In this document: piece after piece, positions 762 through 27,306 of the stretch
Numbering within the stretch: the first letter of the stretch is position 1
Layout: each line of letters begins with the position of its first letter
Origin: a virus
Length of the DNA: 40,474 nucleotides
Direction: 5' to 3' (one strand)
IMG/VR virus record: IMGVR_UViG_3300011013_000029
Span: 1-40,474 of that record
Made by a program: the position numbers and the translations under genes
Notes under the pieces: generated by a model
Told to the model about the DNA's origin: nothing
What the model saw: only the letters and a program-made list of their open reading frames with translations
Databases searched by the model: none

Positions 762-3272
762 GAGTAGGAAACCCAGTTCTTGGTTTAGGTTCTCTTTAAT
801 GGATTTCCTATTATACATTTCCATTACTGCCCTGTTCACCTCAAGACTAAAGTTGGTATGGTGCCCTTTAATCTTACCAGTATCCCCTGCTTTACTTAAC
901 ACAAACTCATTCTTTAATGTTATTTTCATGTTACCCGAAGATAATTCTGCTTGACCTGTAGTAGAGTTAACCGTAAGGTCCCAGGAGTTCCCCATCTGAT
1001 CTATTTCACCGTTTAGTACTGATCTCCAAGCATCTCTAAGGGGGTCATTCTGCTTGAACACATAATTTTTAGATCCAATTAAATCTCTATAGTCACACAC
1101 TAGTTGATTATCATCCGACCCTCCTGCGTGAAACATCTTATGAGCGATCTGCAACTGTGCAGATCTCCTGACAGTGGGATCCTCAGACTTTAAATCGTTA
1201 GCCACCCTATCAGCTTGTAGTAGAGTTACTGTCTGGTTTTTCAAAGAATCAAACGCGGCACGCAACTCATATTTAGTGCCTGTTCCTTTTATAATTTTTC
1301 TAGCATTTTTCTCTAGATCTGTAAGAAGTCCTGGGCTAGTATCATAACCCAAGCTCCTAAGTTTATCTAAAATGGATTTAGAGAATGTTTTAGGGGTATC
1401 TTTAGTGTTTATTTTTTTACCATCTTTAGTAGTAACTATGGCTTCGGTTGGGAGATCAAAAGCAGCGGTAGCTATTTTGTCTAACTCATCAAAGTAACCT
1501 TTAACAGCAGTTCTATCAGAACGAGACATTTGGAGATTACTAGATATTGTTTTTAGTAAACTTTCCTTGGTATAACTCTGCCTCATTAAGCCATCCTTAC
1601 CAGCAAAAGTATTAGCAGCCCCACCTCCATACTTCGCTGTGTTTAAACTCATATAGTTTTTCAAACTTACCTTTAAAACTGAAACTTCTTGTCCTGGTGA
1701 GTAAACTCCTGCGGCTATTAGTGCATCAAGTTCTTCTAAATGTTTATCCCCAAACGCTTCTTCAATAGGCATACTGTAAGGCTCCACCTCAAGCCCAGAC
1801 TTTTGTGCAGCTATCTTTGCTTCATCTAAATCATTATACAGTTCTAAAACATCTTGCCTCTTACCCCTTCCTACTTGATCCCCAACTGAAAGTGCATACT
1901 TTGGGCTTCTAACCCTCAAGGATTCAGCAGAGTGTTTTAACATGCTTTCAAATAAACTCTTGGACGCTTCCCCTTCACCCAGAACCTCATACAATTCTCT
2001 TGCTAACTCCTTAGTATCAACGTCAATGCCCGCTTCAACAGTTCTCGATACCCAACCTTCAGAATCAATCTTTGCCTTGATTAACTTTTGGGAAATAGTG
2101 CTTACCATCTGGGCTCGCAACATCATGAGAGGTTCCGGTAGGCTCCCATCTTTCCCTCGAAGTAACGCTAGAGAAGCTACTGTTAATATTTGCTCCATTG
2201 CCACTCCCCTTACGTTGTTAGTAGAACCTGTGCCTGTAATGGGAGGTCTAACAGTCATTGTCGCAAGCTCATATGAAGGATCAGCTTTCTTACAAATGGA
2301 AGTAGCTTTATCTAACAGATCTTTAATAAAAGCCCCTCTTCCTGCTCCTCCATCAAAACTTAATCCCCTAGAGGCATCTCCTGACCCTTTTACTACAACG
2401 TCCCCCCGGTTAGTTACGGCAAAATTAGACAGAACATTCTTACATTCATCGGGAGTTAAAGCTTCTTTACTATCTTTAACAATAACGTCCACAAGGTCTC
2501 TAAACGATCTGCTTATAAGAGAAGTTTGAGCTTCTTCTAAGGGCTCCTCCTGAGAGACCCACAAACCATCTTGCATACTTAGAGAGAACTTAGGGGATAG
2601 TAAAGCTCTCTGAAAAGACCAAGTTGAGTCCCCATAAAAGTAGTTACCATAATGAGCAGCCCCTATAAGCTTGTCCCATTTCGTATCCTTGATAGGTCCT
2701 GGGATGTAGTTTTCACCTTCTTCTTTAGACTTCTCCCATTTACCCATAATTTTCCATATATCTTTTTTTAAACCAAAAATATTTCTAAAGTCTTTCTCCA
2801 CTGATCTAATAGTATCCTCCGAAAGGCCAGTCTGACTGAGCATTAGCTGTTGCTTCCCAATGAAGTCTACATCCCCTGGAGTAAGAGGAGGTACAATCTC
2901 CATCTGCTGTTCTTCCTCTGGAGAGTCTACTTGAGAGCCTTCTTCGCCCTCTCCTGCCCCTTCCTGAGGGAGATTGGGGTCTGTAGCACTCCCGAAATGG
3001 CCCACAAAGTTGTCCCAGTTCTTTCTTATCGGTTGCGCGTAGGACTTGTTCGGGTTGGTCGCAAACATTGCAACCCCATCATCATTGTTCCATACATAGA
3101 GAGCTTTGCCTGAAGGGGTGGATACCGCAATAGGAGCTTGCCCAGGTGCCGGGACTTGGTCCAGAGCCTGATTGGCTAATGTCACCGCTTCTAGATCTTG
3201 CTGCTCTAATAACCTAAGGTCACGGTTGTGAATACGGCTAAAACTCTCTAGTATTTCTTTGTAAATATCCAT
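717..3272 (-). CDS. Large virion-associated protein of unknown function
   Basis: An 851-residue protein that I do not recognise. The N-terminus (MDIYKEILESFSRIHNRDL) looks helical. Residues about 35-75 have a YVWNNDDGVAMF segment that may be a small beta domain. Residues about 98-130 are low-complexity and acidic (EGAGEGEEGSQ, PEEEQQ). The remainder is mostly helical and charged, with a Gly-rich patch (GDASRGLSFDGGAGRG, about residues 298-313). No portal, terminase, lysozyme or ADP-ribosyltransferase motif was found. It follows the tail tube gene in the place where T4 has the portal gene, but it is not a portal by sequence. A hairpin terminator and a late-promoter-like TCTAAATA lie just upstream, so it may be transcribed on its own late promoter. 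A packaged internal head protein is a reasonable guess from size and position only. The ribosome site is weak. Confidence 0.6.
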   Translation of the reverse strand: MDIYKEILESFSRIHNRDLRLLEQQDLEAVTLANQALDQVPAPGQAPIAVSTPSGKALYVWNNDDGVAMFATNPNKSYAQPIRKNWDNFVGHFGSATDPNLPQEGAGEGEEGSQVDSPEEEQQMEIVPPLTPGDVDFIGKQQLMLSQTGLSEDTIRSVEKDFRNIFGLKKDIWKIMGKWEKSKEEGENYIPGPIKDTKWDKLIGAAHYGNYFYGDSTWSFQRALLSPKFSLSMQDGLWVSQEEPLEEAQTSLISRSFRDLVDVIVKDSKEALTPDECKNVLSNFAVTNRGDVVVKGSGDASRGLSFDGGAGRGAFIKDLLDKATSICKKADPSYELATMTVRPPITGTGSTNNVRGVAMEQILTVASLALLRGKDGSLPEPLMMLRAQMVSTISQKLIKAKIDSEGWVSRTVEAGIDVDTKELARELYEVLGEGEASKSLFESMLKHSAESLRVRSPKYALSVGDQVGRGKRQDVLELYNDLDEAKIAAQKSGLEVEPYSMPIEEAFGDKHLEELDALIAAGVYSPGQEVSVLKVSLKNYMSLNTAKYGGGAANTFAGKDGLMRQSYTKESLLKTISSNLQMSRSDRTAVKGYFDELDKIATAAFDLPTEAIVTTKDGKKINTKDTPKTFSKSILDKLRSLGYDTSPGLLTDLEKNARKIIKGTGTKYELRAAFDSLKNQTVTLLQADRVANDLKSEDPTVRRSAQLQIAHKMFHAGGSDDNQLVCDYRDLIGSKNYVFKQNDPLRDAWRSVLNGEIDQMGNSWDLTVNSTTGQAELSSGNMKITLKNEFVLSKAGDTGKIKGHHTNFSLEVNRAVMEMYNRKSIKENLNQELGFLLSRMGTLLEKMEVSY

Positions 3273-3345: not shown

Positions 3346-3969
3346 TTAGAATCCTGGACCGGCAAGACCAAGATCTTGATACTTACCATAGTCAACGAAA
3401 TCGTATCTAAATGTTACTTCAAGGGTTGAGAACTCATTTGTGGAATAGTTCTTTTCAGAGAATCTAGTAGCCGTGGGATACACACCATACATCTCTACAT
3501 AAGCATGAGGAGTATTTGTATTATCCAACTCCACGATAGTCATCCTCTGAGCCTTGAAAGGAGTAATAGGGGTGCCCGCAGGATCAGCGACCTTAGTTAC
3601 TTCACCCGTAATAGGGTCATACATCGACTTAAACCATCTCCACAAGGAAGGGGTAGCCTGACTAAGAAGTTGGTTATCAAAGGTAATCTGCACAGTTTCA
3701 GGAGTAAACTTCCCTGGATAGAATACCTTATCATTAACCCTGTCCACCACGATATCCTCTATTTGGCCTCCAACTGGACTAACCTGCTTGGCAGCTGCGA
3801 CAAGATCGGTGTAAGCTGTTACGCCTTGAGCGAGAAGACCATAGAATCTCACTTCAAATTGATAAGCTCTTACAGAATCAAGCTTAGTTGATATCTTTGG
3901 AAGTTCAGACCCAGGTCTAAACGTCCCTCTCACTTCATTTTTATAAATTCCAGGAGGTATACTAGTCAT
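3346..3969 (-). CDS. 19: Tail tube protein (gp19-like)
   Basis: A 207-residue protein directly after the sheath gene, where T4-like phages keep the tube gene. It has the tube-type pattern: an early beta strand SVRAYQFEVRFYG (about residues 32-44), a central ...VTQITFDNQ-like strand (VQITFDNQLLSQ), the WRWFKSMYDP helix, and a C-terminal beta segment ending in EVTFRYDFVDYG. It is somewhat longer than T4 gp19 (163 residues). Rings of this protein form the inner tube through which DNA passes. The start ATG is six bases after the end of the sheath gene, with a weak GGGTAAG ribosome site inside the sheath stop region. Sheath and tube are clearly one transcription unit, closed by the terminator at 3291-3320. 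Confidence 0.85.
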   Translation of the reverse strand: MTSIPPGIYKNEVRGTFRPGSELPKISTKLDSVRAYQFEVRFYGLLAQGVTAYTDLVAAAKQVSPVGGQIEDIVVDRVNDKVFYPGKFTPETVQITFDNQLLSQATPSLWRWFKSMYDPITGEVTKVADPAGTPITPFKAQRMTIVELDNTNTPHAYVEMYGVYPTATRFSEKNYSTNEFSTLEVTFRYDFVDYGKYQDLGLAGPGF

Positions 3970-3974
3970 ATTTC

Positions 3975-6020
3975 TTACCCATTAATGGTAGCCGATTGGC
4001 TTGTTAGGTTAACTTCAAAAACAATCGTTTCAGCAGCCTTTGTCGGCTTGATTGTAACTGAGCACCATAGTTCATTTCTATCTACTCTTAAAGGAGTGTT
4101 CGTAGTAGAATCACATATTACCGCACCTTCAACAATGGCTCTTCTTGCTAGGAGATCACCGATAAATGGATCCAAATTGGCCTTTACTTGCTCCCAGGTA
4201 AATTGGTCATTAGGCTCAAACTGGAAGGGCTTCCCTAATTGTAATAATGTCTTACGGATAAAGATCATTAACCTTCGAACATTAACTCGGTCCAAAGCAC
4301 TTGGCTTTCTCTGAGTAGTTCTTTGCCCAAAAATTACAATCCCTTCCGCTGGATCTTTCACAATAGGGTTCAAGGAGTTAGCATAAAGACTATCTTTATC
4401 CCCTTGGTTGAGGATGGTCTCAGTATCCGTGGGCTTTGTTAGCCTACCTCTATTGATACCTGCTGGAGCAAACCAGGGCTCACTCACAGAGTCAGTGAAT
4501 ACGCATTGTCTAGCAGCGAAGATTGCTGGGTCATACCATTCTTCCGCCCCAGCGAAGTAGTTGAATACTTGCACCCAAGGCCAGTAAGCAGCTGCATAAG
4601 AGGAATTCAAAGCAGCGGTTCTAGTGCCCTTGCCATTAATCCAGTCCGTCGCATCCTGAACCTTACCAACAGCAAGAGGAGGGGATACAAGTGCTAAGAA
4701 ATTCTTTGAGGACTCAGCAAGGGTCACCAGCTCGTTCTGAACAGCATCGTCAGAAATTCCAGGAACTGCTGCTAGTGAAATGTTTAAGGAATCATCATTT
4801 AAAGCATGGATCCCAGTCTTGTTAGTAGCACTACCCTTCAAAGCAGAGATCCCAGAACCAGTATATCCGCTCTTCCCAGAAGTAAAGTTATAAGTGCCTT
4901 CTATTGGTTTAACAAATCTTGGAGTAAGGGCATCGGCCACAGCGACCTCCCCGGATCCCGCGATTCCTACCGCCACAGGTAGCGTATCACCCCACACGTT
5001 GGGGAAGCTTGCATAATCTGTCTCTGCTACAGGTATTGACGCGGCATTCACATATACGTAATCTGATTTGGCATTTAGCTCGTCATTAGTGAGGAGTCTC
5101 TCAAAAGAATCTGCCGATACAGAGGCTAGCTCCCCCGTGAAAACTTCAGCTTGGGCACCATCTGAATTCACCACAAACCGGTCGAGGACTGATCTGTTAG
5201 TTACTTCTACTGAAATTCCTTGAGTTGAGCCATCTCTTAAACCACTTATATTATAAGCCGTCCCTGGATACAAGGAGTAAGCAACTAGTCCTATCGAGGA
5301 TATATCAAAGCCACGAATAGTAACGTCACCCGCTTCAGGGACTTGTCCAGTGATGCCGTTATTAACGGCACTAACGGCCCCGTTCGCCCGAATCGGTTGG
5401 AACCTAAGACCTTCGTTGCCATCCACGCCCACTGTACTTGATAGGCGTAAAGTAGCCCCAGACCCGGCAAACCTAGATGCTAAAACAAAAGCACCTGCTG
5501 CCGCCGCAGATTCATAGGCGATTAGGGGCTGATCATCAGTCAGTTCAGGATTAAATGCATTAAAGAGAACTTTTCGCCGGGTATTATGGGTCGTAGTGCT
5601 AGCCGGGATGACTACAAGGCCGCTCGTGGAAAAGACTCCTTGATTATCGTTAACTTGATAATAAAGCGAAGAAGGCGCAACAGGATCCCAGTTCCCAGAA
5701 ACGAATGCAGCTGGAGCGGCCCCTAAAGGAATAACAGCACTAGCTGCCGCCGCACTTTCATCAGCCGCTCTTACAAAGTATAACTGATTGGTTGCTTCAA
5801 GAATCTCTAAGGAACCTTCGAGCCCCTGTCCAGGCATATCCGTGTTAGGTCTCCCGAAGTTCTTAAGAAGGTTTTCTTGGCTCGTAATTAAAGTTGCCTT
5901 ATTAGTTGGGCCTTTGTCAGCGAATCCAACAATTCCCACAACACTTGAATTGACGTTAGGGGTATAAATTGAAACATCATTTTCAAGTACTACAACGGAA
6001 GGACTAGTAGGTATTGCCAT
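3975..6020 (-). CDS. 18: Contractile tail sheath protein (gp18-like)
   Basis: A 681-residue sheath protein, close to T4 gp18 (659). The N-terminus (SPSVVVLENDVSIYTP, then VVGIVGFADKGP) is the typical sheath start that donates a strand to neighbouring subunits. The C-terminal half has the most conserved sheath core: PWFAPAGINRG, GIVIFGQRTTQ, ALDRVNVRRLMIFIRK, and a final EVNLTSQSATI strand. The middle part (about residues 120-330) is variable and probably forms the outward-facing domains. The protein surrounds the tube and contracts on infection. It follows the 91-residue gene closely, with AGAGAG as the ribosome site just ahead of the ATG. Confidence 0.95.
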   Translation of the reverse strand: MAIPTSPSVVVLENDVSIYTPNVNSSVVGIVGFADKGPTNKATLITSQENLLKNFGRPNTDMPGQGLEGSLEILEATNQLYFVRAADESAAAASAVIPLGAAPAAFVSGNWDPVAPSSLYYQVNDNQGVFSTSGLVVIPASTTTHNTRRKVLFNAFNPELTDDQPLIAYESAAAAGAFVLASRFAGSGATLRLSSTVGVDGNEGLRFQPIRANGAVSAVNNGITGQVPEAGDVTIRGFDISSIGLVAYSLYPGTAYNISGLRDGSTQGISVEVTNRSVLDRFVVNSDGAQAEVFTGELASVSADSFERLLTNDELNAKSDYVYVNAASIPVAETDYASFPNVWGDTLPVAVGIAGSGEVAVADALTPRFVKPIEGTYNFTSGKSGYTGSGISALKGSATNKTGIHALNDDSLNISLAAVPGISDDAVQNELVTLAESSKNFLALVSPPLAVGKVQDATDWINGKGTRTAALNSSYAAAYWPWVQVFNYFAGAEEWYDPAIFAARQCVFTDSVSEPWFAPAGINRGRLTKPTDTETILNQGDKDSLYANSLNPIVKDPAEGIVIFGQRTTQRKPSALDRVNVRRLMIFIRKTLLQLGKPFQFEPNDQFTWEQVKANLDPFIGDLLARRAIVEGAVICDSTTNTPLRVDRNELWCSVTIKPTKAAETIVFEVNLTSQSATING

Positions 6021-6363: not shown

Positions 6364-7038
6364 CTATTCTACTAGTGTAGTGTCTATGTTGGTATCAATC
6401 TCAGTAATCTCGCCTGTATTCGTAAACATAAATTTAGGACTAGGTATATAGGTTTCCAAGGAAACTTGAATAGACTTTTGAATTATTCGATCACTAGTAT
6501 CCGCCGCAATCATACTTCCTAAATCCATTTCAGACACAAGAAAAGCTTTATTGTAATCTGAAAATTTTGTTCGAATATCCATATCAGGATTGAACAACGA
6601 GAAGATACCCGACCTAATCATATCCATATCCGCTTTATACTTACACCAGATATTAACTTCATAATTAATATTTATAGCTCTAGGTGCAAGACTTAAAATT
6701 CTTACTGCTCTTAATTTTTTGGGATCCCAATACGATTCATGCATTAAAATGGGGTTGTATCTTCTTCTATCATCAGAGTTTTCAGTGGACTTCTCCACAA
6801 TAGTGAGCATGGGGAGAATTAATGTGTTGTCTGCTTTCAACTTACCCGCGATTCTCTCGGGGTTACCATGAGAGCACTTTACTTTCACCCTATTGTGATT
6901 TCCGTCAATATAGTAAATGTTACTAAAGATATGTAGCATCTGCCTTAGACTATCCTTATAGACGTTATCTATCACCGGCAGAAGCTTAGTTTTAGTCATA
7001 CTTGCAATTTGATTTCTAGGGTCAGTGTTTACGCTCAT
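6364..7038 (-). CDS. 15: Tail terminator / sheath stabiliser (gp15-like)
   Basis: A 224-residue protein with the pattern of the T4 gp15 family: an early helix and strand ending in FSNIYYIDGNHNRVKV, then the conserved segment NTLILPMLTIVEKS and RRYNPILMHESYWDPKKLRAVR, then a beta core (APRAININYEVNIWCKY) and the C-terminal EMDLGSMIAADTSDRI. It is shorter than T4 gp15 (272). In T4 the hexamer caps the finished tail and holds the last sheath ring for joining to the head. The start overlaps the end of the gp14-like gene by four bases (ATGA), with a strong GGAGGT ribosome site, so translation is coupled. Confidence 0.8.
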   Translation of the reverse strand: MSVNTDPRNQIASMTKTKLLPVIDNVYKDSLRQMLHIFSNIYYIDGNHNRVKVKCSHGNPERIAGKLKADNTLILPMLTIVEKSTENSDDRRRYNPILMHESYWDPKKLRAVRILSLAPRAININYEVNIWCKYKADMDMIRSGIFSLFNPDMDIRTKFSDYNKAFLVSEMDLGSMIAADTSDRIIQKSIQVSLETYIPSPKFMFTNTGEITEIDTNIDTTLVE

Positions 7039-7580
7039 AACTTACCTCCAACATCATCCACCCTATCAAATCTATCTTCATTATAAATATCCTCGGTATC
7101 GCGAAGAAGTTTAGCGTGAACTAATAGGTGATAAACCCCATAGGCTTCAAAGCTATCCTCCTGGACTTCGTAAACCTCAAACTTCATTTCCTGAAATTCT
7201 GGTCGAAGAACGTCACCAATTTTAATTGTCCTACCTAAGGTGTCTTCGGTATAAGATTTATTAAATACAAATACTTGATCTATTTGCATCTCCACACCAA
7301 ACTGAGAAAGGTTTTCTTCTATAGGTCTGGGGTCGTAGTGAGCCCATAGGGTAATTGGCTCAGAAGCTATTGCTTTTTGTCTAGACTCCTGATAAACGTC
7401 ATCTATATCCTCACTCTTAACATACTCAAATACCTGGACCTTGGACCCAGAAAGCTTGATGTTTTCTGCATCTATCTTATTGAACAAGTTCTTATCATTT
7501 TTCTTATTAAATAATGATAAGCGAGTGTTCCTAACTTCAGGAAAGTTAGTAGGAGGAGTATTTACTTTAAATCTGGACAT
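7035..7580 (-). CDS. 14: Neck protein (gp14-like)
   Basis: A 181-residue protein between the gp13-like and gp15-like genes. Visible features are a SGSKVQVFEYVKSEDIDDVYQ segment with the following KAIASEPITLWAHYDPRP, then FGVEMQIDQVFVFN and IGDVLRPEFQEMKFEVYEV. This 'vfE...D.lYgE......P..l.a.ve..P' order and the late 'GD.l......eIyeV' beta segment are what T4-like gp14 proteins show. It is shorter than T4 gp14 (256). The gene shares one base with the end of the 1101-residue neck fusion (TAATG) and has no evident ribosome site of its own, which points to coupled translation. Confidence 0.7.
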   Translation of the reverse strand: MSRFKVNTPPTNFPEVRNTRLSLFNKKNDKNLFNKIDAENIKLSGSKVQVFEYVKSEDIDDVYQESRQKAIASEPITLWAHYDPRPIEENLSQFGVEMQIDQVFVFNKSYTEDTLGRTIKIGDVLRPEFQEMKFEVYEVQEDSFEAYGVYHLLVHAKLLRDTEDIYNEDRFDRVDDVGGKL

Positions 7581-8437
7581 TATGTTATATCAAATAGCGG
7601 TGGTCCTTCGATACCACTTACTAGCTCCTCTAAAAGTTTTTCTTTCTCTAAGGCAGCTTCTCTGATTAGGGAATCCCCATTCAGTTTCGTCCCTCCTCCT
7701 GGTCCCGGTAGGGTTTGGTATTTATTTCTAATCCCACCCAAGATCTCCTTAGCTAGGCACAAAGAAAATCTCTCCACCCAATTCTTATAAGCATGGTGAA
7801 TAGTTTTCGGGTCAAATGCTCTAAACTCCAACAATACCGTTTCTGTATTGTTTTCAGGAACCGGCCACACATGTAGATATCTATTCCCAATCAACTGCCA
7901 TGTAGACATCTGCCCTAGAACATTCTTTACTTGCTTTAGGTATTGCTGCATTAACAGGTATTGGCTTACATTGTAATTATTGAACAGCCCAGTGTTGGTG
8001 AAGAACATAATGGCAAAATCATATTCTAGTGAACCAGGGCTCGCCCCAAACTTAAAGAAGTCTCGTTTGTACCAAACATCATTTAGGTTATCAGCCACCG
8101 CAGCGGGAAGATCGTATACATTGATACCTCCTGAGGTTTGGAAAGTAGCATACTGAGTCATCCAGTCGGGGGCATGATACTCAAGACGAGAAATCGCTTC
8201 ATCTATACAAGTTTCAATTTGGAAATCTTCAAGCTCCACATCAACAACGGGATACCCAAGCCTAGAAAGAATATAATCTTTAATAGTTCGTTGGAAATCC
8301 TTGAACTCTACAGTGCCCTTAGCGTCTTTATTATTAAGATCGTCTGGTCTTGGGGTATCATAATCCTTAAGCTTATTACCCCCGTATTTACCGTAAGAGG
8401 AACCGTAAGACCTTACTATGGGGGTTCCAATTTTATT
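7580..8437 (-). repeat. Duplicated gp13-like domain, copy A
   Basis: This 858-base segment codes for the last 285 residues of the 1101-residue protein plus stop. It aligns without gaps with 10885-11742. I count about 57 amino-acid differences, so about 80% identity, with one run of 63 identical residues. Many third codon positions differ inside that run, so the copies are old and both are under selection. Confidence 0.9.
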
Positions 8438-10885
8438 AGATGTTAGCACCTCTGCCTCAGATTCTGATACTATGCCTCGGGTAGGAGGACCAGGATCAGG
8501 GAAAGGACTATCATTTCGCAAAATCATCTTGTAGGCATTAGTCGTCAGAAATGGAAGATCATTCTGATCGTAAAAAACAGCCTGTATCCCATACCCATTA
8601 GTCGAGAAAGGACCCCCATAAGGTTCGGGAGGCATTGCCATCCTATGGATAATTGTTCCATACCTAGACGCCTTAGTTAAAGTATCATCCATATAAGATT
8701 GTTGGGCTGGAGCAGGAGTTTGATCAACATAAATATACTGTCCATTACCTAAAGCCGAAGGAGTTGATAATATTTCTCCTCCAAGAATCTTACAAGTAGT
8801 ATTAGGTGGACACTGGAATATCTCCCAAGTTACTTTATTAGTCCCTCCCTCCCCATTAAAAGTGGCATCTTCATTGGTTGCCAAATAAGGGCCACTAAAA
8901 TCTGCCATCCCTATAACCTTTTCAAAGCCCTGGGAATATAGGCTATTAGATGTCTGATAGTCTAGTAACTCATTAGATATTCTATATTTTCTGTAGTAAT
9001 AAGCAATATAGTTCCTATCATCACCACTGACTAAGCCACTGATTCCGTAGGAATTAATAGTAACTGAACTTCCTGGGAACATGCTTGGGGTGTCCGACTC
9101 GTAATCATTGATCCACCTCGCATTGGGGAGGTGATTAAAACCAGCGGTCGTAGCATCTGTATAAAAAGGTCGAGTCCAACCATAAGTATTTTGGGTAGTC
9201 CATCCTAGAAGCGGCAAACTCCACTTCGGCCCCAACCCCAAAGCCTGCATAAATAGGGCTTGACCCATGGAGCTTTGGTTCCTAAAAGTCCACCCATACT
9301 TAAGGAAATGGTCCCCATAGTTACCACCTACTGTCCTCCACTGGGAAAGATTGGGATCATCTTTAGAATACTTATACATATCTGCCGAAGCAGGACCTAA
9401 ATAGGGCGCATTCCCAGGCCGGAAAGTCCCAATGGGGAGTCTTCCTGGGGTATTGCTCTTCCCAGGATACCAAGGGGAAATCCCACTAAGCCCTGGCCCC
9501 AATTCAGATGCATATTCCGTATCCCACTTACCTCCAGAAGGGTGTAACTGTTGGAACCCTACACAGGCTGAGAGACCATAAGAGGAAGTTGCAGTATGGT
9601 TATCCCCCCAATACCACCCATTGAACAAAGCTGAAGGAGTAATCACATCTATGGGCCTACCAACCCCATATCGGGGATCCCAAGGGTTGCTAAAATGTCC
9701 TTGCCCGGAACAGAAAGTATGGGCTTCCCCAAATCTCCCTAAGCCTATATCGTGCTTTGGATCGTCGTATCTTGTGGGGCCGAGATACCTATCAGGATCC
9801 TTCATCTCTTCATTGTTTAGAAGAACACCCGCAGCCATAATCATAGCTTTTTTAGCTTGGAAATGACCTCCATTAGATTTCTGATCTCTTCCATCCTTCC
9901 ATGCACTCCAATAATCAATACCAGCCTGGGTTAAAGCTTTTAAAGTTTTAGTACGAAGTTCTTGCTCACTCTCAGGAACAATCATTAACGATTTAAGAAG
10001 AACTAAGTTAATTAACTCTCCCCACCCTTGACCATACCCAGGTTGGTGGAATCCTGCATGAATAGCCTCGGAACCCCACTTTTGGTTATCATCCCCAAAA
10101 TAGTATCTAATAGCATTATATAGATCTTCCCAATAAGGCTTAACTACAGGAGAAGGAGTGTTAACCGACCCAAATATTTTAGCGTAATACCCACTAAAAG
10201 TGTTCCCACCACCGGGCTGCTCTTCTGTGAGAAACTGAGGTATTCTTGAGGCATCAAACTCAGACATATAAAATTGTATTTTATTATTAATCCTTCCTTG
10301 ATGCCAATAGGCTCCTGGTCTAAAAGTTAGGGTCTCCTCTAACCCCCCTCTCCCATGTGTTTCAGTGTCCAAAGGGGGAATTCTATCAAGGAAGGTTAAG
10401 GGCATCTTACAAGAAATAACTGTCCTAACCCTATCCTTAGATAACGCATAACTAAACAAAGCAGCTGTACCCACTCCACCTAAACCATCAACCGAGCTAG
10501 GGATACCAGAGGCCATAACTACCATATCATGGGGGACACAACTCAGAGGTAGTGATTGGTTATAGGACGCAACATAGGGTATCCTCGCATTCGCTCTCTC
10601 GTCGTAGCCCTGAACTGCCGCATGTCCTGGCACATTCATCATAATCCCATTAACATCTTTGTAGCCATTAAATCCAAATTCTCCATTGAAAAGCCAAGAT
10701 TCTTGGGGAGGGGTAGTAGAGACTATCGCAGCCGAGAAAAACGGATCATGTGTAGTAGGGGCAATCCAAGGACTTCCATCAATATATTGGCCGGAAGTCA
10801 TCGCATAGGTGGAAGACACAGTAGCAGTAATTCCGCTAACATCAGTGATACTTGGATAAAAACAACCAACAGTGATTTGAGCCAT
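7580..10885 (-). CDS. Neck protein gp13-like with large N-terminal toroid-like enzyme domain
   Basis: An 1101-residue fusion. Residues 817-1101 form a gp13-like neck domain (KDYILSRLGYPVVDVELEDF, then CIDEAISRLEYHAPDW and the ending PPLFDIT), ~80% identical to the end of the next upstream gene. T4 gp13 is about 309 residues, so the preceding ~800 residues are extra. That part has an aromatic-rich beta start, a helical region at about residues 255-360 (GWGELINLVLLKSL, then GIDYWSAWKDGRD and NGGH at 338-341 with KKAMIMAAGVLLNN), an aromatic loop HTFCSGQGHFSNPW, and beta segments at about 680-800. The helical part resembles alpha/alpha-toroid carbohydrate enzymes and uncharacterised secreted bacterial proteins; I cannot fix a reaction. 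The gene shares one base with each neighbour. Confidence 0.75.
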   Translation of the reverse strand: MAQITVGCFYPSITDVSGITATVSSTYAMTSGQYIDGSPWIAPTTHDPFFSAAIVSTTPPQESWLFNGEFGFNGYKDVNGIMMNVPGHAAVQGYDERANARIPYVASYNQSLPLSCVPHDMVVMASGIPSSVDGLGGVGTAALFSYALSKDRVRTVISCKMPLTFLDRIPPLDTETHGRGGLEETLTFRPGAYWHQGRINNKIQFYMSEFDASRIPQFLTEEQPGGGNTFSGYYAKIFGSVNTPSPVVKPYWEDLYNAIRYYFGDDNQKWGSEAIHAGFHQPGYGQGWGELINLVLLKSLMIVPESEQELRTKTLKALTQAGIDYWSAWKDGRDQKSNGGHFQAKKAMIMAAGVLLNNEEMKDPDRYLGPTRYDDPKHDIGLGRFGEAHTFCSGQGHFSNPWDPRYGVGRPIDVITPSALFNGWYWGDNHTATSSYGLSACVGFQQLHPSGGKWDTEYASELGPGLSGISPWYPGKSNTPGRLPIGTFRPGNAPYLGPASADMYKYSKDDPNLSQWRTVGGNYGDHFLKYGWTFRNQSSMGQALFMQALGLGPKWSLPLLGWTTQNTYGWTRPFYTDATTAGFNHLPNARWINDYESDTPSMFPGSSVTINSYGISGLVSGDDRNYIAYYYRKYRISNELLDYQTSNSLYSQGFEKVIGMADFSGPYLATNEDATFNGEGGTNKVTWEIFQCPPNTTCKILGGEILSTPSALGNGQYIYVDQTPAPAQQSYMDDTLTKASRYGTIIHRMAMPPEPYGGPFSTNGYGIQAVFYDQNDLPFLTTNAYKMILRNDSPFPDPGPPTRGIVSESEAEVLTSNKIGTPIVRSYGSSYGKYGGNKLKDYDTPRPDDLNNKDAKGTVEFKDFQRTIKDYILSRLGYPVVDVELEDFQIETCIDEAISRLEYHAPDWMTQYATFQTSGGINVYDLPAAVADNLNDVWYKRDFFKFGASPGSLEYDFAIMFFTNTGLFNNYNVSQYLLMQQYLKQVKNVLGQMSTWQLIGNRYLHVWPVPENNTETVLLEFRAFDPKTIHHAYKNWVERFSLCLAKEILGGIRNKYQTLPGPGGGTKLNGDSLIREAALEKEKLLEELVSGIEGPPLFDIT

Positions 10886-11742
10886 TATAATATATCAAAC
10901 AAAGGTGCCTCTTCTATTTCAGTTAGAAGTTCCTCTATAAGCCTTTCTTTTTCTTGTGTTGCTTCTTGAATTAAAGCCTCTCCATTTAAGGAGGTTCCGC
11001 CACCGGGACCTGGAAGGGTTTGATATTTGCTTCTAATCCCACCCAGAATCTCCTTTGCTATACATAGAGAATATCTCTGTATCCAGCTTTTATAAGCATG
11101 GTGAATGGTCTTTGGGTCAAAAGCTTTAAATTCCAAAAGTACACTTTCTTTGCTGGATTCGGGAATAGGGAATATATGTAAGTATTTATTATTTACTAAT
11201 TGCCATGTAGACATTTGACCTAAAACATTCTTTACTTGCTTTAAGTATTGTTGCATCAATAAATACTGGCTTACATTATAATTATTAAAAAGACCAGTAT
11301 TAGTAAAGAACATAATAGCAAAGTCATATTCTAATGACCCTGGTGAAGCCCCAAACTTAAAGAAATCTCGTTTGTACCAGACATCTGTTAAATTATCTGC
11401 TACAACTTGAGGAATCTCGTAAACATTAATGCCGCCTGTTACCTCAAAAGTAGCATACTGAGTCATCCAGTCAGGAGCATGATACTCAAGACGGGAGATC
11501 GCTTCATCTATACAGACATTTAATTGAAAATCTTCAAGCTCTACATCGACAACTGGGTAGCCTAACTTCGCTAATACATAATCTTTTACTGTCCTGTCAA
11601 AGTCCCTAAATTCTACGGTATCCTTGGCATCCTTGTTATTAAGGTCATCTGGACGAGGAGTCTTATAGTCCCCTAACCTGTTGCCTTTATAAATCCCATA
11701 AGATGATCCGTAGGATTTAACCGTAGGTATACCTATTTTGCC
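10885..11742 (-). repeat. Duplicated gp13-like domain, copy B
   Basis: The second copy of the neck domain, same length as 7580-8437 and gap-free against it. Both copies end in PLFDI plus one residue and the stop, and both share the stop base with the next ATG (TAATG). The gene boundary was therefore duplicated together with the domain. Confidence 0.9.
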
Positions 11743-12912
11743 CGCAGTAGTTCCTTCAGTAGCAGCAAAAGTAGCACCCGGAGCAGTACCAGTCATGTTG
11801 GATTCAGAGGTTGTAGCAGTCTGGCTTTGTAATGTAGGGGAGGGTAAAGGAAGGCTCGACAAAGGATAGATAATATTCGAAATAGCAGCACCCAAATTAA
11901 AAGCACCAGACAAGTCGTAGTGTACCTTATCCTCTGCTACTGAATATACTGCGTTTGGAGTGCCTCCCGCACTTGTAAAATAATTCCATACTGTTTCTGT
12001 CCCTGTGGTGGGAAGGAAATACGTATCAGTTTTTCCTAACAAATTTAAATCAATAGACGCATTGTAGGTACTAGTCCGAATGGTATTAAACCTTTCTTCT
12101 TCCCCTACCCTAGTCCCATGGTCATACTGATCGTGAGTACCCACTAGAACAGTTGTTGGTCGGGTTCTCCTATAATCAAAATTATTTAAGGTGCATCCAA
12201 ACTCTTCTAAAACATCATAAATATTTGTTACAAAATCAACAAGAAGACCCCTATAAGCTCTAGACCCATAAGGGGCTATCGCGTCTAAAGTCCCCATAAC
12301 AACATACATGCCATCAACGACTACAGTATTTGTACCTGCTGCCGATAAATCAGCAACTGCCGCTGATAACTGATTAAATAATCCGTATTTCGCATTCGGA
12401 GATGGGATAGTAAGAAAATTAGAATCTTTAGTCAGAGGCCAAAGGCTGGCGTAGTCTATCCCCCCAGCGTTGGGGTTACCAAAAAAGTCTAGAGTGTTAT
12501 CCCATTTTAAAAGACTAGTTTGATACTTCGATCCTTTAAAAAGATGCACATCTACACCAGAGGGTAACGACGCTGAGACCTCGCCCGCAACTGGAATAGT
12601 TCCTGGCGATAGCTTTTTTACTCTCCTCCCCCAATACCCTGAAGCTAGCCACCTTAAGGGAAACTCAGGCCCCACGACCGCACTTTCCCAGTGGGTATTT
12701 GCACTGAAAATATTATAGTTCTCCCATTCCTGCTGTCCTGGTTCGTAATTCCAAATCTTAAGTTGTGTTTGTTCTGCGAGATGGGCAGAAAGGTTTATAG
12801 TCGCGATATCAGGAATCCCAGGGTGAGGAACGGTAGCAGACAAAGAAGAGGCAGCAACGGCACCCGCACAATTAGAATCCCCTATACCAATAACTAGCCT
12901 CTTCTCAGCCAT
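10885..12912 (-). CDS. Neck protein gp13-like with N-terminal SGNH hydrolase-like domain
   Basis: A 675-residue protein when read from the ATG at 12912, which has an AGAAAGG ribosome site. A longer reading would need a TTG at 12948 inside the terminator hairpin. Residues 1-~375 look like an SGNH/GDSL esterase domain: block I VIGIGDSN with Ser13, a later GTLDA (207-211) in the place of the GxND or QGExD block, and DKVHYDLSG with Asp328 and His331 as the likely rest of the triad. Leu209 in the third block replaces the usual oxyanion Asn or acidic residue. A low-complexity Ala/Thr/Ser linker follows. Residues 391-675 are the gp13-like neck domain. It is the first gene after the capsid terminator. 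Confidence 0.8.
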   Translation of the reverse strand: MAEKRLVIGIGDSNCAGAVAASSLSATVPHPGIPDIATINLSAHLAEQTQLKIWNYEPGQQEWENYNIFSANTHWESAVVGPEFPLRWLASGYWGRRVKKLSPGTIPVAGEVSASLPSGVDVHLFKGSKYQTSLLKWDNTLDFFGNPNAGGIDYASLWPLTKDSNFLTIPSPNAKYGLFNQLSAAVADLSAAGTNTVVVDGMYVVMGTLDAIAPYGSRAYRGLLVDFVTNIYDVLEEFGCTLNNFDYRRTRPTTVLVGTHDQYDHGTRVGEEERFNTIRTSTYNASIDLNLLGKTDTYFLPTTGTETVWNYFTSAGGTPNAVYSVAEDKVHYDLSGAFNLGAAISNIIYPLSSLPLPSPTLQSQTATTSESNMTGTAPGATFAATEGTTAGKIGIPTVKSYGSSYGIYKGNRLGDYKTPRPDDLNNKDAKDTVEFRDFDRTVKDYVLAKLGYPVVDVELEDFQLNVCIDEAISRLEYHAPDWMTQYATFEVTGGINVYEIPQVVADNLTDVWYKRDFFKFGASPGSLEYDFAIMFFTNTGLFNNYNVSQYLLMQQYLKQVKNVLGQMSTWQLVNNKYLHIFPIPESSKESVLLEFKAFDPKTIHHAYKSWIQRYSLCIAKEILGGIRSKYQTLPGPGGGTSLNGEALIQEATQEKERLIEELLTEIEEAPLFDIL

Positions 12913-12937: not shown

Positions 12938-12948
12938 CTTAAACACAA

Positions 12949-13001: not shown

Positions 13002-14678
13002 TTAGGTGGGAGCACCACCGTAGGCAGTCACATCATGACTGTTGGCAGTCCCATTACGGAAGATTTCCTTCGTAATGAAGTCAGCACCAGTTCCGATCAA
13101 TCGAATAACTCGATAGAATCTTGAAGCTGGCTGAACTGCAACCTTACCATACCGGGTCAAGATACCCTTTCTTGGTTGGAAGGTCTCAGGATCTACAACC
13201 GTATCCAATGGCTGGAGTGGGACATATGGGCAATAGAAGAACCCAGCATCCATTGGGCTGCTACCCTTGTAGCCGACAATGATCTCGTCTTCAGGGAACA
13301 TTGGGTCAACAATCAAGTCATACTTGCCAGCAAACTTGCCCTTATACTGAATCTGAGTTCCCGTGTTGGTCGTTGGACCAGCGTCAGAAGGTAGACCACC
13401 CTCAAGCTTCGCAGCCGACTCTAGTAGTAAAGAGATCACAGGAGAGGTGACTAGGACATTGCCAGGAACCCGAAGAGTTGTTATGTAAATGTCAGTGCTA
13501 GCAAAGTTAATCAGTGCTAGAACATTTGAATACATGTGACCCAAGTGCTGTGGGGCAAATGTAGTGGTTGACTGGACAAATCTACCAAGATCCATAACAT
13601 AGATGTTGGAGTATCTACGGCTAATACCTTGGCTTCCACCGTCCTCAAAAGCACCCTCTTCTGCGGTCAGAGCAGCATCGAAATCATATTGGTATGCGCC
13701 AGCAACGAATGCACCACCGTTCCCAGTCGTGCCAGTGCCCCCAATGTCAGGGAAATCGTCAGCAGGACCACCGTAGAGCGACCGTAGATACCAACCATTG
13801 TCCCCATCAGTGCCAAAAACACCTGGGCCGTAAGCGATCATGCGAATGTCTTCGATCAGTTCGCGGTCGATTTCAAGGTTCATTTCCTTGGAGAGGAGAT
13901 CCGTCAGTTCGGCTTCCATATCCAAGTTGTGGTAAGCCTTGAGATCCTGCGCGGCTTCTAAGGTCCACACTGCTCTCATCTTACGTTCGCGAGCTTGCAC
14001 AGTCTGCTTCTGAATGTGCATTGAGATTTCTGGGATCAGATCCCCACGAAGTCTCTCAGCAGCAGAAACGCTATAGCCAAGAATGGAAGTGCCACTTGGG
14101 AAAGAAGCCAACTTACCGCCCATGGTAGTCGATGGGGAACCATTATTGTAACCCAGGACGTTAGACATGTCATAAGCAGAAGTCGTAATCTGATCATAGG
14201 TGAGAGCACTTGCAGACTCGTTCTGCTGGAGCCACCGCTGTAAAGCTGCGGCACTCTCAGGACCCTTACCGAGATTCGACCCATCGAAAGACCCAATACC
14301 CGAAGCCACCAGATTACGTGGAGTAATGTTGAACTTCGAATACATTAACTGGGTGACACCATTATGGTGCCGGGAGTTACCCATATAGAAGATTTGCGAA
14401 ACCGGGCCATCCATTGCCTGGGTTGCACCAATCTTGTTGAACATAAGCTCTGGATACATACGACGAATGAGGGGGAAAGCCCACTTTTGGAAAGTGCCAA
14501 TCTTACCCGTAGTCGTAGCATTAACGCTTAATGACTCTTCATCCATTCTGCTCTTGGTGAACTCCTTAGCTTGGTTCTCCAATAGACGAGCAGTCTGATA
14601 TGCGATGTGATCATCCCCGATACCTTCAAGGAGTGGCTCCCAACGCTTTACTAAACTGTTTCTATCAATTGCGGTCAT
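13002..14678 (-). CDS. 23: Major capsid protein (gp23-like)
   Basis: A 558-residue T4-type HK97-fold major capsid protein (T4 gp23 is 521). The N-terminal region (LVKRWEPLLEG, ARLLENQAKEF) is the expected cleaved propeptide. LLE at 16-18 and at 32-34 fit the L/I-x-E preference of the gp21 protease, but I cannot choose the site. Then come the highly conserved core segments TGKIGTFQKWAFPLIRRMYP and MDGPVSQIFYM, and later the ELTDLLSKEMNLEIDRELI helix, YVMDLGRFVQSTTTFAPQHL and FYCPYVPLQPLDTVVDP. A gly/ser-rich region at about 150-210 is where T4-like capsids carry their insertion domain. The gene has an AGAGGT ribosome site and directly follows the scaffold gene. Codon choice looks more GC-rich at third positions than the neighbours, consistent with strong expression. 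Confidence 0.95.
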   Translation of the reverse strand: MTAIDRNSLVKRWEPLLEGIGDDHIAYQTARLLENQAKEFTKSRMDEESLSVNATTTGKIGTFQKWAFPLIRRMYPELMFNKIGATQAMDGPVSQIFYMGNSRHHNGVTQLMYSKFNITPRNLVASGIGSFDGSNLGKGPESAAALQRWLQQNESASALTYDQITTSAYDMSNVLGYNNGSPSTTMGGKLASFPSGTSILGYSVSAAERLRGDLIPEISMHIQKQTVQARERKMRAVWTLEAAQDLKAYHNLDMEAELTDLLSKEMNLEIDRELIEDIRMIAYGPGVFGTDGDNGWYLRSLYGGPADDFPDIGGTGTTGNGGAFVAGAYQYDFDAALTAEEGAFEDGGSQGISRRYSNIYVMDLGRFVQSTTTFAPQHLGHMYSNVLALINFASTDIYITTLRVPGNVLVTSPVISLLLESAAKLEGGLPSDAGPTTNTGTQIQYKGKFAGKYDLIVDPMFPEDEIIVGYKGSSPMDAGFFYCPYVPLQPLDTVVDPETFQPRKGILTRYGKVAVQPASRFYRVIRLIGTGADFITKEIFRNGTANSHDVTAYGGAPT

Positions 14679-17807: not shown

Positions 17808-18641
17808 CTAACAAGCAGTAAGGCTCATTCTAACTACTACATTAATAGTTGTTTCCGCAGAAATAAATGAACCATAGGTTACCCTAACTTTAACTAAAGG
17901 TCGCTTGGTCCAGGATGGGGTTGGACTTGTTCCAGGGCTGTAAGATGTTGGGTTAAACGTCAATTGTCCAGTAGAGGAATTGATTGAAAACAACTGACCC
18001 CCTCTCACCAATTCAAAGGAAACTTGAGGATCCAAAGGCTGTTTGAATATCTCCCCCGCAGCCGCCGGAAGGTTTGGTGCTCCTACTCCTTGAAAACTTT
18101 GGAAAGTTCTTCCACTACCCTCCTCTTCTAAAACTACTACAAATCCATTAGAGTTTGTAGGGGAAGTAGGGCACCACGATCGAAGGGCATATTCGCGGGA
18201 ACCAGGGGTGGCACCGGGATTTAGGCTTCTAGACTTACCTTCAACGAGTATACTTGGATAAGTTACCGATATACTCGCAACAGTGTATCCAATTGTCTCT
18301 TCTGGAGGAGCAGTGGGGTCTATTTCAGCAGCATTTCCTCCTCCATTTACAAATACAGAAGTTTGAATTTGGGTGTCTGCGACATCCCCGCACCCCAAGG
18401 GATCTGCATCCCTTAATACTGGACTGCCTTCAATAAACACCGTAGGGCTACCTTGAATTACCGGAACAGAATGTGTTGAGGGGGGATCAGTACATCCTGG
18501 GCTGTGAGGTACATAACTATCCCCGGCAACAATTACTGCCTTCCCCTCAATACGGACCTTAGTATTAGTAGTCGCAACCGCTTCGGTCGGAGACCAGCAG
18601 TGCCCCTGGCTAACATCCCCTTCTACAACAGCTAAAGGCAT
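17808..18641 (-). CDS. PAAR-type spike tip protein with C-terminal beta domain
   Basis: A 277-residue protein. Residues 1-~100 follow the PAAR pattern of repeated beta hairpins: VEGDVSQGHC (His14), VRIEGKAVIVAGD, PHSPGC (His46, Cys50), THSVPVIQGSP (His57), VFIEGSPVLRDADPLGCGD (Cys84). Three His and one Cys would give the usual metal site at the cone tip. PAAR proteins sharpen the tip of gp5/VgrG spikes; T4 has gp5.4 in this role. Residues about 115-277 are an extension with strands and the segment FSINSSTGQLTF, typical of cadherin-like or immunoglobulin-like folds. It follows the 898-residue gene with a one-base overlap (TAATG). Confidence 0.8.
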   Translation of the reverse strand: MPLAVVEGDVSQGHCWSPTEAVATTNTKVRIEGKAVIVAGDSYVPHSPGCTDPPSTHSVPVIQGSPTVFIEGSPVLRDADPLGCGDVADTQIQTSVFVNGGGNAAEIDPTAPPEETIGYTVASISVTYPSILVEGKSRSLNPGATPGSREYALRSWCPTSPTNSNGFVVVLEEEGSGRTFQSFQGVGAPNLPAAAGEIFKQPLDPQVSFELVRGGQLFSINSSTGQLTFNPTSYSPGTSPTPSWTKRPLVKVRVTYGSFISAETTINVVVRMSLTAC

Positions 18642-21337
18642 TATCTATCCTCCTTCTTTATAATAACTTTATCATCATCTGGTAAAATATACTGGCTTGT
18701 ATCCTTTACCGTGTTAATGACATAGTTAATTTTTACCCCGTCCCTATAACCCCTCTCAAGTTGACTAAACAATTCAATGTTGGAGTCATACATAAGTTGT
18801 CCCATCTGGCTTAGGGTCATCCGTCTAAACACATCATACCAAACAATCTGGTCTTTATCGTAGGTATCATTTATGTAATCAATAACATCCCTAATCATGT
18901 AAGACATGCCATATGATGAGACGGGACTAGAGCTTGTCGTGTATACTCCATTGGAATAGAATGTCTTAGTAAAAGATTCGCTATTCCTATCATATTTAAA
19001 TTTTATATTCTGACTGTCGGGGGGTTCAACCAATCCCACCTTCAAATCCCCTCCCGTATCATTATACAAGTTCACCTGAGCTAGAGCATATCTACTAGAA
19101 TCATTATCTGAAGTATCAATATCTAAAGTAAGTCGAACAGACCTACTAACAGTATCTCCAAATGAATCAAGATTTGAAACCCCATTCAGTGGGTTAAACT
19201 TAGACCCAGCCACGGGAGTTATTATTAGACCAAAGGGCATATTTCTTCCAATTCGAACCCCTCCCCTATAATCCTTGGGATCCTCAATGGCTTTAAAATT
19301 AATATCATTTAGTGATAGTTTTGCCCTACCTGTATCCATAATGTATCTGTATAAAGAATCCCTGTAATCCAAATTAACTCTGGTTACCGCCAATCCGTTA
19401 TTGAGTGTATGCTCATCAATTTCATCCTGATCGTCAGAAACTCTATAGTTTGCCGAGTATCTAGAGACCAAAGGATTATTATTGGATTCGCTAGCCATGG
19501 ACTCCAGATCAAGAATTAAATAAAGAGGTCGAAGGGCCGAAGCCCCAGTGTCTCCAGAGACCAACTCATTAACTCCAAATAATGAGGAAGCTTGCAATAT
19601 GTAATCCTTATTCTCTTTAAATAGTGTTAATGCATTATACCGAACCCCAGGAGGGACATAGTAAGTGCTGGAATAATCAGAGGTAGTAACCAAAGGCACA
19701 TGAGACCCATCAGACTTTTGGATATCCATATAGTAACCATCCCCATCCCCCGTTGGGACAGCAGCTTCACTTTGATCTATTTTCTCAACAGGGATACCTG
19801 CATCGGTTAGATACATTGGTAATCCCTCATTACTCAAAGGTTCTGTAATGCAGTTTGCATTAATATCTGTATTGAATCTTCTCTGTCTTCTAATTTCTCT
19901 CTTACGAAGGTTGATATGAGCATCGGGATCTGCTACAACTGACCCCACTGAGAGTAGACCTAAAGCTGCTTTTTCAGAGGTAGTAGGATCTGAATACCCT
20001 TTATACTTAATCCTGGAATCCGCAGTCTGCCTTCTAGCCAAGTCAATATAGTGATCAGAGTTAAACTCCGATAAAGTTCCTTCCAGCAAGTGCTTTTTAA
20101 CAACTTCTATGAAAACATCTTCACCTACTAACTGACCCCCTGGTAAATGTATACGCCGAAATGCGGATAGTAAAGCAGGTTGCAAACTAAATTTAATCGA
20201 ATCATTGCTTACCGCGAATAGATTGCTTTCATCCCACACAGCAGTCGAGTTACCCTTTTCAATAAGGGTCGCTACAGTAGCATACATTTCAGGAGTAAAT
20301 ATACTAGGGTAAGTAGTATTATTTTTAAAAGTTGAAATCTCCCTAGAGCCTTTTCTTTCAAAGAAATTATAACTATTGTCATATACTTCAGTCTGTGGAG
20401 TATTAGCAACTGTAGCTTGAGAAGTTTCAATTGAAGGGTCCAAACTTACATTCACTACGTTGACACTTATTGGCCTACCCCCTGAGGATTGGTTGGTCTC
20501 TTCCAAAACATTTACAGGTCTAACTGATGTATTTACAATAGGATCTGGTATTAGAACTGAAACATTAGGACGCTCACAAGTTGTAACAAAATTACCTGTA
20601 GTTATTGGGCCTGGGGGACATGCTGCATCACATTCCTGGGGTGTCCTAAAAGCACAGGCAGTTCTATTAAAGTATACTGCTGAATTCCCCACAACCTTAG
20701 GGGTAGTTGTCGCGGATAGAGAAGTCCCATGATTTTGATTATAAGGACTGCACCTAACACACTGATGGGATACGCTAAGGATTCTTTGCTGACTTTGGGG
20801 CAACCCCACATCCTCTGGGCATATTCTTACCATCTGCTGGCATAGGTATCCAGGAACAACGCCCGCGCCGGTTGTAGGGGTAGACGGGGTAGACGGACCA
20901 CCAGGACCTCCGGGTGTAGCAGGACCACCACGACCTCCAGGATCTCCAGGAGGGACCACCTCACCGGGACCCCCTCCTTCCCTAATAGGAACCTGAGGAG
21001 AAGGGCAAGCAGCCATGCAAGCATCTAGAGAAAAATGAATACACTCTGGGTCGTTAGAAGGAGGGTTGGGACCTATCCCATCGCATTTCCTACATTTCCA
21101 ATACCCGTTAACATACCTGAATCCGGGGTTAGGAGGTTGATACTCGGGATCCCCAGGAGATATCCTAACACATTTCCACTTATCCTGTATTGGAGGGTCT
21201 GGGACCAGGACAGGAATTTTAGGAGTTCCAGGACCAGTTGGAATAAGTATAGGAGGGTCTGGTGGCTGGATTGGATCTACGGTGATAGGCTCCCCACCAG
21301 GAACAAACTCACCGCAGCCAAACCTAATACCAGCCAT
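18641..21337 (-). CDS. Baseplate-associated protein with cysteine-rich modules and collagen-like stretch
   Basis: An 898-residue protein without a family I can name. Residues 1-52 are rich in Pro. Two cysteine-rich modules follow: C82/C85, C99, C107, C111 and C193/C196, C228, C236, C240, with the same C-x7-C-x3-C end (DACMAAC, QECDAAC) and a shared VRI-(S/C)-P-x-D before them. Between them, at about 121-152, is a Gly/Pro-rich collagen-like stretch (PPGDPGGRGGPATPGG). The rest is a long mixed domain ending at about 700-898 with aromatic and charged segments (VSSYGMSYMIRDVIDYIND, QLERGYRDGVKINYV). It lies directly before the PAAR tip gene, so it could belong to the baseplate centre or be a fibre. 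Cys-rich sequence is rare in phage virions. Confidence 0.65.
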   Translation of the reverse strand: MAGIRFGCGEFVPGGEPITVDPIQPPDPPILIPTGPGTPKIPVLVPDPPIQDKWKCVRISPGDPEYQPPNPGFRYVNGYWKCRKCDGIGPNPPSNDPECIHFSLDACMAACPSPQVPIREGGGPGEVVPPGDPGGRGGPATPGGPGGPSTPSTPTTGAGVVPGYLCQQMVRICPEDVGLPQSQQRILSVSHQCVRCSPYNQNHGTSLSATTTPKVVGNSAVYFNRTACAFRTPQECDAACPPGPITTGNFVTTCERPNVSVLIPDPIVNTSVRPVNVLEETNQSSGGRPISVNVVNVSLDPSIETSQATVANTPQTEVYDNSYNFFERKGSREISTFKNNTTYPSIFTPEMYATVATLIEKGNSTAVWDESNLFAVSNDSIKFSLQPALLSAFRRIHLPGGQLVGEDVFIEVVKKHLLEGTLSEFNSDHYIDLARRQTADSRIKYKGYSDPTTSEKAALGLLSVGSVVADPDAHINLRKREIRRQRRFNTDINANCITEPLSNEGLPMYLTDAGIPVEKIDQSEAAVPTGDGDGYYMDIQKSDGSHVPLVTTSDYSSTYYVPPGVRYNALTLFKENKDYILQASSLFGVNELVSGDTGASALRPLYLILDLESMASESNNNPLVSRYSANYRVSDDQDEIDEHTLNNGLAVTRVNLDYRDSLYRYIMDTGRAKLSLNDINFKAIEDPKDYRGGVRIGRNMPFGLIITPVAGSKFNPLNGVSNLDSFGDTVSRSVRLTLDIDTSDNDSSRYALAQVNLYNDTGGDLKVGLVEPPDSQNIKFKYDRNSESFTKTFYSNGVYTTSSSPVSSYGMSYMIRDVIDYINDTYDKDQIVWYDVFRRMTLSQMGQLMYDSNIELFSQLERGYRDGVKINYVINTVKDTSQYILPDDDKVIIKKEDR

Positions 21338-27305: not shown

Positions 27306-27306
27306 T

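Follow-up and report, generated by a model that had tools for sequence, protein, structure and literature searches.

In phage T4, the neck adaptor gp13 is a dodecamer seated on the gp14 hexamer, each gp14 contacting four gp13 subunits; it binds the portal through its C-terminal arm and lines the channel with helix 6, and the twelve copies of domain III together bear six collar fibres and six whisker fibres (PMC12270204). Enzymatic or carbohydrate-directed functions at the neck are known from other phages: the P22 neck connector gp4 has lysozyme activity (PMC5380687), and modules of carbohydrate-binding and pectin-lyase-like type occur in the neck passage structures of lactococcal phages (PMC6669499). 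Head-tail adaptors are themselves treated as conserved single-copy assembly parts. The stretch of virus record IMGVR_UViG_3300011013_000029 analysed here (40,474 nt, referred to in its entirety as the window) departs from that pattern. Two adjacent minus-strand genes, A (7580-10885, 1101 amino acids) and B (10885-12912, 675 amino acids counted from its ATG; the open frame itself starts further upstream, with a TTG at 12948), both end in a gp13-type domain, and each begins with a different module. An adaptor has here been duplicated and apparently made the carrier of two surface modules.

The C-terminal 285 residues of A and B align without a gap and are identical at 227/285 positions (79.6%), much as the first-pass annotation, made from the letters of this DNA, had described; 58 differences were counted, where it gave about 57. 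With a similarity of E 2e-167 in a search within the window, chance is no issue. The domain is present in the window only as these two copies, and the absence of an unfused gp13 there was likewise borne out. The modules in front of it, first put at ~800 and ~375 residues, were refined to 816 for A and 390 for B. The longest identical run between the two copies is, as had been reported, 63 residues with many silent codon changes (27 codons), but 49 of its 63 columns are more than 95% identical across 66 family members. Because it is so strongly conserved throughout the family, the run is not special to the pair, and for this reason and on account of the silent codon changes it was rejected as a sign of recent gene conversion.

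The shared domain is almost certainly a T4 gp13-type neck adaptor, and the profile searches proposed as a check on that identification agreed with it. The head-tail adaptor profile PHROG 211 (Ad2) matched the A copy at E 1.7e-20 and the B copy at 5.8e-23, and phmmer against the PDB found the solved T4 gp13 at 1.3e-11 and 1.3e-10, respectively. A profile built from 22 relatives matched residues 10-298 of T4 gp13 at about 7e-21, and the top Foldseek match of the B model, itself of low confidence, was also T4 gp13 (2.4e-7). Fifteen columns are invariant in 22 diverse gp13 sequences that include both copies, and all are intact in A and B. Throughout the family, bare copies included, ~45 residues precede the first T4 helix, and the modules are joined ahead of that arm.

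The position of the pair is that of gp13, the order around it being major capsid protein, gp13, gp14, gp15, sheath and tube (Table 1), and a gp21 protease gene is among the neighbours too. In every relative checked, a 74-89% identical partner of the gp14-like gene lies immediately behind gp13. Given the stop/start overlaps at both joins, B, A and the gp14-like gene are probably translated together by translational coupling.

The wider distribution of this arrangement was determined from scans of viral contigs, which gave ~150 loci with a related gp13; truncated loci were set aside. Apart from the window and four further contigs, all non-truncated contigs have a bare single gp13 gene of 280-300 amino acids at the same location, beginning exactly at the domain start. 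The four others (L003, L004, L005 and L006) each carry the complete fused pair, with the gene order unchanged and the modules homologous, and fall with the window into two lineages, one consisting of the window and L003 and the other of L004, L005 and L006. L003 differs from the window at only 0 and 1 nt in the two fused genes, with 2.3% difference in the capsid protein. Between the lineages, module A is 40%, module B 46%, the gp13 parts 78-80%, and the capsid protein 83% identical; the pair has thus been kept through substantial divergence. The five fused gp13 sequences that were placed in a tree group together as a single clade (93/92) nested among bare gp13s. The occurrence of the same pair in both lineages, together with the single fused clade, points to one duplication-fusion history that would predate the lineage split.

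Many relatives with a bare gp13 have highly variable beta-repeat genes between gp15 and the sheath gene (L011:6579-8879, L016:3594-5927, L030:12065-13096 and L061:2329-4464), and in some of these a lectin-like 'DTYPSSAAAYSVRKL' unit occurs twice. The locus resembles one for neck or tail decoration and is absent from the fused lineages. The idea that the fused pair substitutes for this gene was unsupported, as many bare-gp13 relatives also do without it.

Table 1. Features of the fused gp13 pair and of the structural genes around it (window coordinates).
Feature	Coordinates	Strand	Evidence
Tail tube	3346..3969	-	PHROG 4542, 1.5e-15
gp18-type tail sheath	3975..6020	-	PHROG 23, 4.5e-77
gp15 tail sheath stabiliser/terminator	6364..7038	-	Pfam T4-gp15_tss, 1.5e-8
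gp14-like neck gene, 181 aa	7035..7580	-	Position; PHROG 11591 virion structural protein, weak match
TAATG, A stop overlapping start of gp14-like gene	7578..7582	-	Sequence
gp13-type neck adaptor domain of A, residues 817-1101	7583..8437	-	PHROG 211, PDB T4 gp13, family profile
N-terminal module of A, 816 aa	8438..10885	-	40% identical relative in L004/L006; 26% identical stand-alone protein in L084
TAATG, B stop overlapping A start	10883..10887	-	Sequence
gp13-type neck adaptor domain of B, residues 391-675	10888..11742	-	PHROG 211, PDB T4 gp13, 80% identity to A copy
N-terminal module of B, 390 aa, SGNH/SASA-like by motif	11743..12912	-	Motifs kept in second lineage's 46% identical copy
gp23-type major capsid protein, directly upstream of pair	13002..14678	-	Pfam Gp23, 4e-70

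Module B contains a series of motifs whose order we take to be that of SGNH blocks I, II, III and V, presumably closest to the SASA esterases. Block I is KRLVIGIGDSNCAG, with the putative nucleophile S13 in GDSNCAG near the first strand; this motif is kept in both lineages, as is the GPE of block II at 81-83. Block V reads DKVH, where D328 and H331 form the DxxH. All three SGNH-motif residues, Ser, Asp and His, are therefore retained across two lineages in which the module is only 46% identical. The same phage also encodes a 1679 amino acid protein (29056-34095, minus strand) in which a SASA-type carbohydrate esterase domain, matched over residues ~774-860, accompanies a Tail_P2_I domain; the Pfam score of the SASA domain was 24.2 bits on the protein itself and rose over the cut-off, to 29.3 bits, with its neighbours. 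GQSNMNG and GPE are placed there as in module B, and its block III region, NQGETEA, shows that SASA-type domains likewise depart from the SGNH consensus GxND. This protein is probably a second, better supported esterase at the baseplate.

The relatives of module A are phage proteins of differing build. A stand-alone protein of 582 amino acids, adjoining a portal gene (L084:8113-9858), is 26% identical to it and matches phrog_34846 (7e-18) and Omegavirus proteins labelled minor tail or lysin A. In the Omegavirus proteins Halley gp45 (L173:2394-4514) and Redno2 gp43 (L174:2394-4514), a LamG_3 lectin domain precedes the module-A-like one. 'Lysin A' is probably a misannotation here, as Halley has another gene so labelled. 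Scans of genome contigs gave no cellular relatives. Because its relatives are a stand-alone protein and LamG_3-linked ones, module A looks like a phage module placed on differing proteins, of which some at least belong to virions. It is read as a phage virion-surface domain and possibly a helical-toroid one that acts on carbohydrate.

The explanation that we favour, with moderate confidence, begins with a single ancestral gp13 gene that duplicated in tandem, each copy gaining a different N-terminal module before the lineages split. Both products would still be neck adaptors, the C-terminal gp13 part linking portal and gp14. In T4 the C-terminus is occupied by portal binding, so the N-terminus, where both modules are attached, is likely to be the free end, and each module would be displayed on the neck exterior. 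As the two genes are adjacent and overlapping, the A and B proteins would probably be made in similar amounts and co-assemble into a joint ring, perhaps in 6+6 alternation around the gp14 hexamer; such an order appeals because the hexamer offers gp13 two settings. From the neck, binding or modification of host surface polysaccharide would be the most likely task of the modules, with B acting as an SGNH-type esterase and A as a phage surface domain like those of tail proteins. The parts of this explanation differ in strength: the data show the gp13 identity, the synteny, and the intactness and conservation of the pair, and from these display at the neck, a mixed ring, a carbohydrate target and catalysis are inferred. 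That both A and B are used in the neck is fairly probable, and their presence in one ring, taken by itself, falls just short of an even prospect. An obligate alternating A/B hetero-dodecamer on the gp14 hexamer, with six copies each of two polysaccharide-acting enzymes replacing the fibritin fibres, is rather improbable.

Several observations weigh against the favoured explanation, most of them concerning the modules. Block III of module B is GTLD (207-210) in both lineages, with Leu in place of the oxyanion Asn of GxND, and it is by motifs alone, without this Asn, that the module reads as SGNH. Module A matched no enzyme family in Pfam, PHROGs, NCBIfam or the PDB, and no toroid glycoside hydrolase or polysaccharide lyase profile. 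AlphaFold models of full-length A (21-row alignment) and B (20-row alignment) had mean predicted local distance difference test (pLDDT) values of 38 and 40, and both were unusable for the fold. Furthermore, the window is a 40-kb fragment, and a bare gp13 may lie elsewhere in the genome. Profile searches with module B also found no match in Pfam, PHROG, NCBIfam or the PDB, and hhalign of it against NanS, TesA, the phage's own SASA domain and 51 decoys gave nothing significant, an unrelated protein having the top score. The low-confidence A model has a helix-rich centre and a beta-rich C-terminus; Foldseek found nothing significant for it, and a xanthan lyase at E 5.8 was disregarded. Of the enzyme domains first proposed, the SGNH hydrolase-like one thus stands on its motifs but lacks a library or fold match and the block III Asn, and module B is best called SGNH-like and not assigned to the SGNH/GDSL (SASA, PF03629) family. 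The helical-toroid enzyme suggested for the other gene was not supported by so poor a model or by any enzyme family.

These results bear on the possibility that the N-terminal modules are not enzymes at all but passive adhesins or structural decorations. A precedent is the gp13 of phage RAS14, whose ~700 amino acid extension of Trp-rich repeats is, by eye, non-enzymatic; the Omegavirus relative of module A, coupled as it is with a lectin domain within a minor tail protein, fits the same idea, as does the lack of an enzyme family match for A. Against it, module B keeps its Ser, Asp and His at 46% identity, and a baseplate-type protein of this phage bears another SASA-type esterase domain. Non-enzymatic modules are accordingly judged unlikely. 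Considered separately, catalysis is reasonably likely for module B, whereas for module A it is a tentative suggestion on the doubtful side.

The gp13 parts evolve differently from the modules. Nonsynonymous distances between lineages are 0.15-0.18 for the gp13 parts and 0.53-0.70 for the modules, i.e., 3.5-4 times lower in gp13, and the earlier statement that both copies are under selection was supported in that both have been maintained. At the DNA level, 49 sites group the gp13 copies by genome, 29 by type (A with A, B with B), and 22 cross, the last representing background; at the protein level the corresponding numbers are 11, 12 and 3. Both sets of counts suggest a partial homogenisation of the copies within each genome, with a type-specific signal retained, and the DNA patterns suggest conversion between the copies of an older date. 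Grouping by genome is as expected for copies held compatible by conversion, but ordinary recombination between similar neighbours would give the same. Type-specific DNA sites are nearly absent from the central part of gp13 (codons 114-171).

These patterns are also relevant to whether a mixed ring exists. Only one copy, or one per particle, might build the neck, the other being an alternative adaptor for certain virions or conditions, or a paralogue at another structural post. The few type-specific residues common to both lineages would suit such a division of labour, 12 protein sites separating the copies by type vs. 3 that cross. Nevertheless, the family-invariant residues are intact in A as well as in B, the two lie in one overlapping gene block with a single gp14 and a single gp15, and they have been homogenised within each genome. 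A neck built from one copy is therefore considered improbable, and the use of both copies is preferred.

A further alternative is that the fusions are processed, proteolysis or an internal start yielding free gp13 while the modules act elsewhere. The module/gp13 junctions are low-complexity linkers, and profile searches showed that the phage also encodes a gp21-type head protease; a shared cleavage motif, though, was not seen by eye in the linkers. Neither junction has an in-frame ATG with a good ribosome site, the nearest ATGs being 29 and 17 codons upstream and the nearest GTG 3. In addition, bare gp13s start exactly at the domain, so this start could have been retained in the fusions, and it was not. 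Processing is thus quite improbable. Finally, an assembly or annotation artefact that joined unrelated genes, conceivable in a metagenomic contig, was rejected as having a negligible chance: the pair recurs in the same order in four other contigs, giving the same unbroken architecture with correct flanks in five contigs of two lineages, and is thus inherited and intact.

Elsewhere in the window, four large proteins of 898, 815, 1186 and 851 amino acids (18641-27344 and 717-3272, minus strand) had only chance-level PHROG and Pfam matches, and several of them have relatives across related contigs. An 874 amino acid baseplate-region protein (36141-38765, minus strand) has a LamG_3-like lectin stretch at its end.

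Where its close relatives have one small bare protein, the neck of this uncultured phage may bear surface-acting modules of two kinds. A ring that both proteins enter would be a heteromeric adaptor of natural origin, and it would show the gp13 N-terminus to tolerate very large cargo. If true, this would offer an explanation of how certain uncultured phages might engage host polysaccharide with the upper end of the virion, and what phage necks do on their outer face would become directly testable.

The closest described system is T4 gp13 itself (PDB 9mkb, 9lu4-9lu7), a homologous domain with the same neighbours gp14, gp15, sheath and tube, and a dodecamer would be expected here too. T4 has one bare gp13 of 309 amino acids that binds fibritin via domain III, in contrast to two copies here with large modules and the conserved ~45-residue arm. 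The initial view that a T4-type gp13 is a single small protein was overstated. Eight of ten distant reference gp13s are 243-300 amino acids long, but that of Flavobacterium phage immuto has 400, and that of Stenotrophomonas phage RAS14/CM1 (WAX21693.1, L093:1829-4759, annotated 'hypothetical protein') has 976, with gp13 C-terminal to its long extension as in A and B. RAS14/CM1 differs in having a single gp13 (CM1 record), in a repeat extension unlike either module, and in a gp13 part only about 26-27% identical. The length of the PHROG 211 profile, 976, suggests that N-extended gp13 fusions are already hidden within that family. Two places in the T4-like Escherichia phage phiC120 (NC_055718.1, 186,570 bases) match gp13, possibly as a duplicated assembly end.

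Beyond gp13, the Omegavirus proteins of phrog_34846 are distant relatives of module A (via the stand-alone protein, 26-27% identity), but there the domain follows LamG_3 in a siphophage minor tail gene and is not fused to gp13. P22 gp4 is likewise a dodecameric head-tail connector with enzymatic activity, but it is an 18-kDa podophage protein whose activity is intrinsic, involving neither fusion nor duplication (PMC5380687). Lactococcal 936 and TP901-1 phages have carbohydrate-active or carbohydrate-binding modules at the neck, but these siphophages place them on a separate collar protein with a BppU-like N-terminus and not on an adaptor (PMC6669499). With these precedents, the first-pass remark that enzymes at the neck would be far from their usual baseplate site is only partly right. 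The literature searched contained no description of a duplicated or enzyme-fused gp13. N-extended gp13s and carbohydrate modules at the neck are thus already known, and the new element is the duplicated adaptor with two different N-terminal modules.

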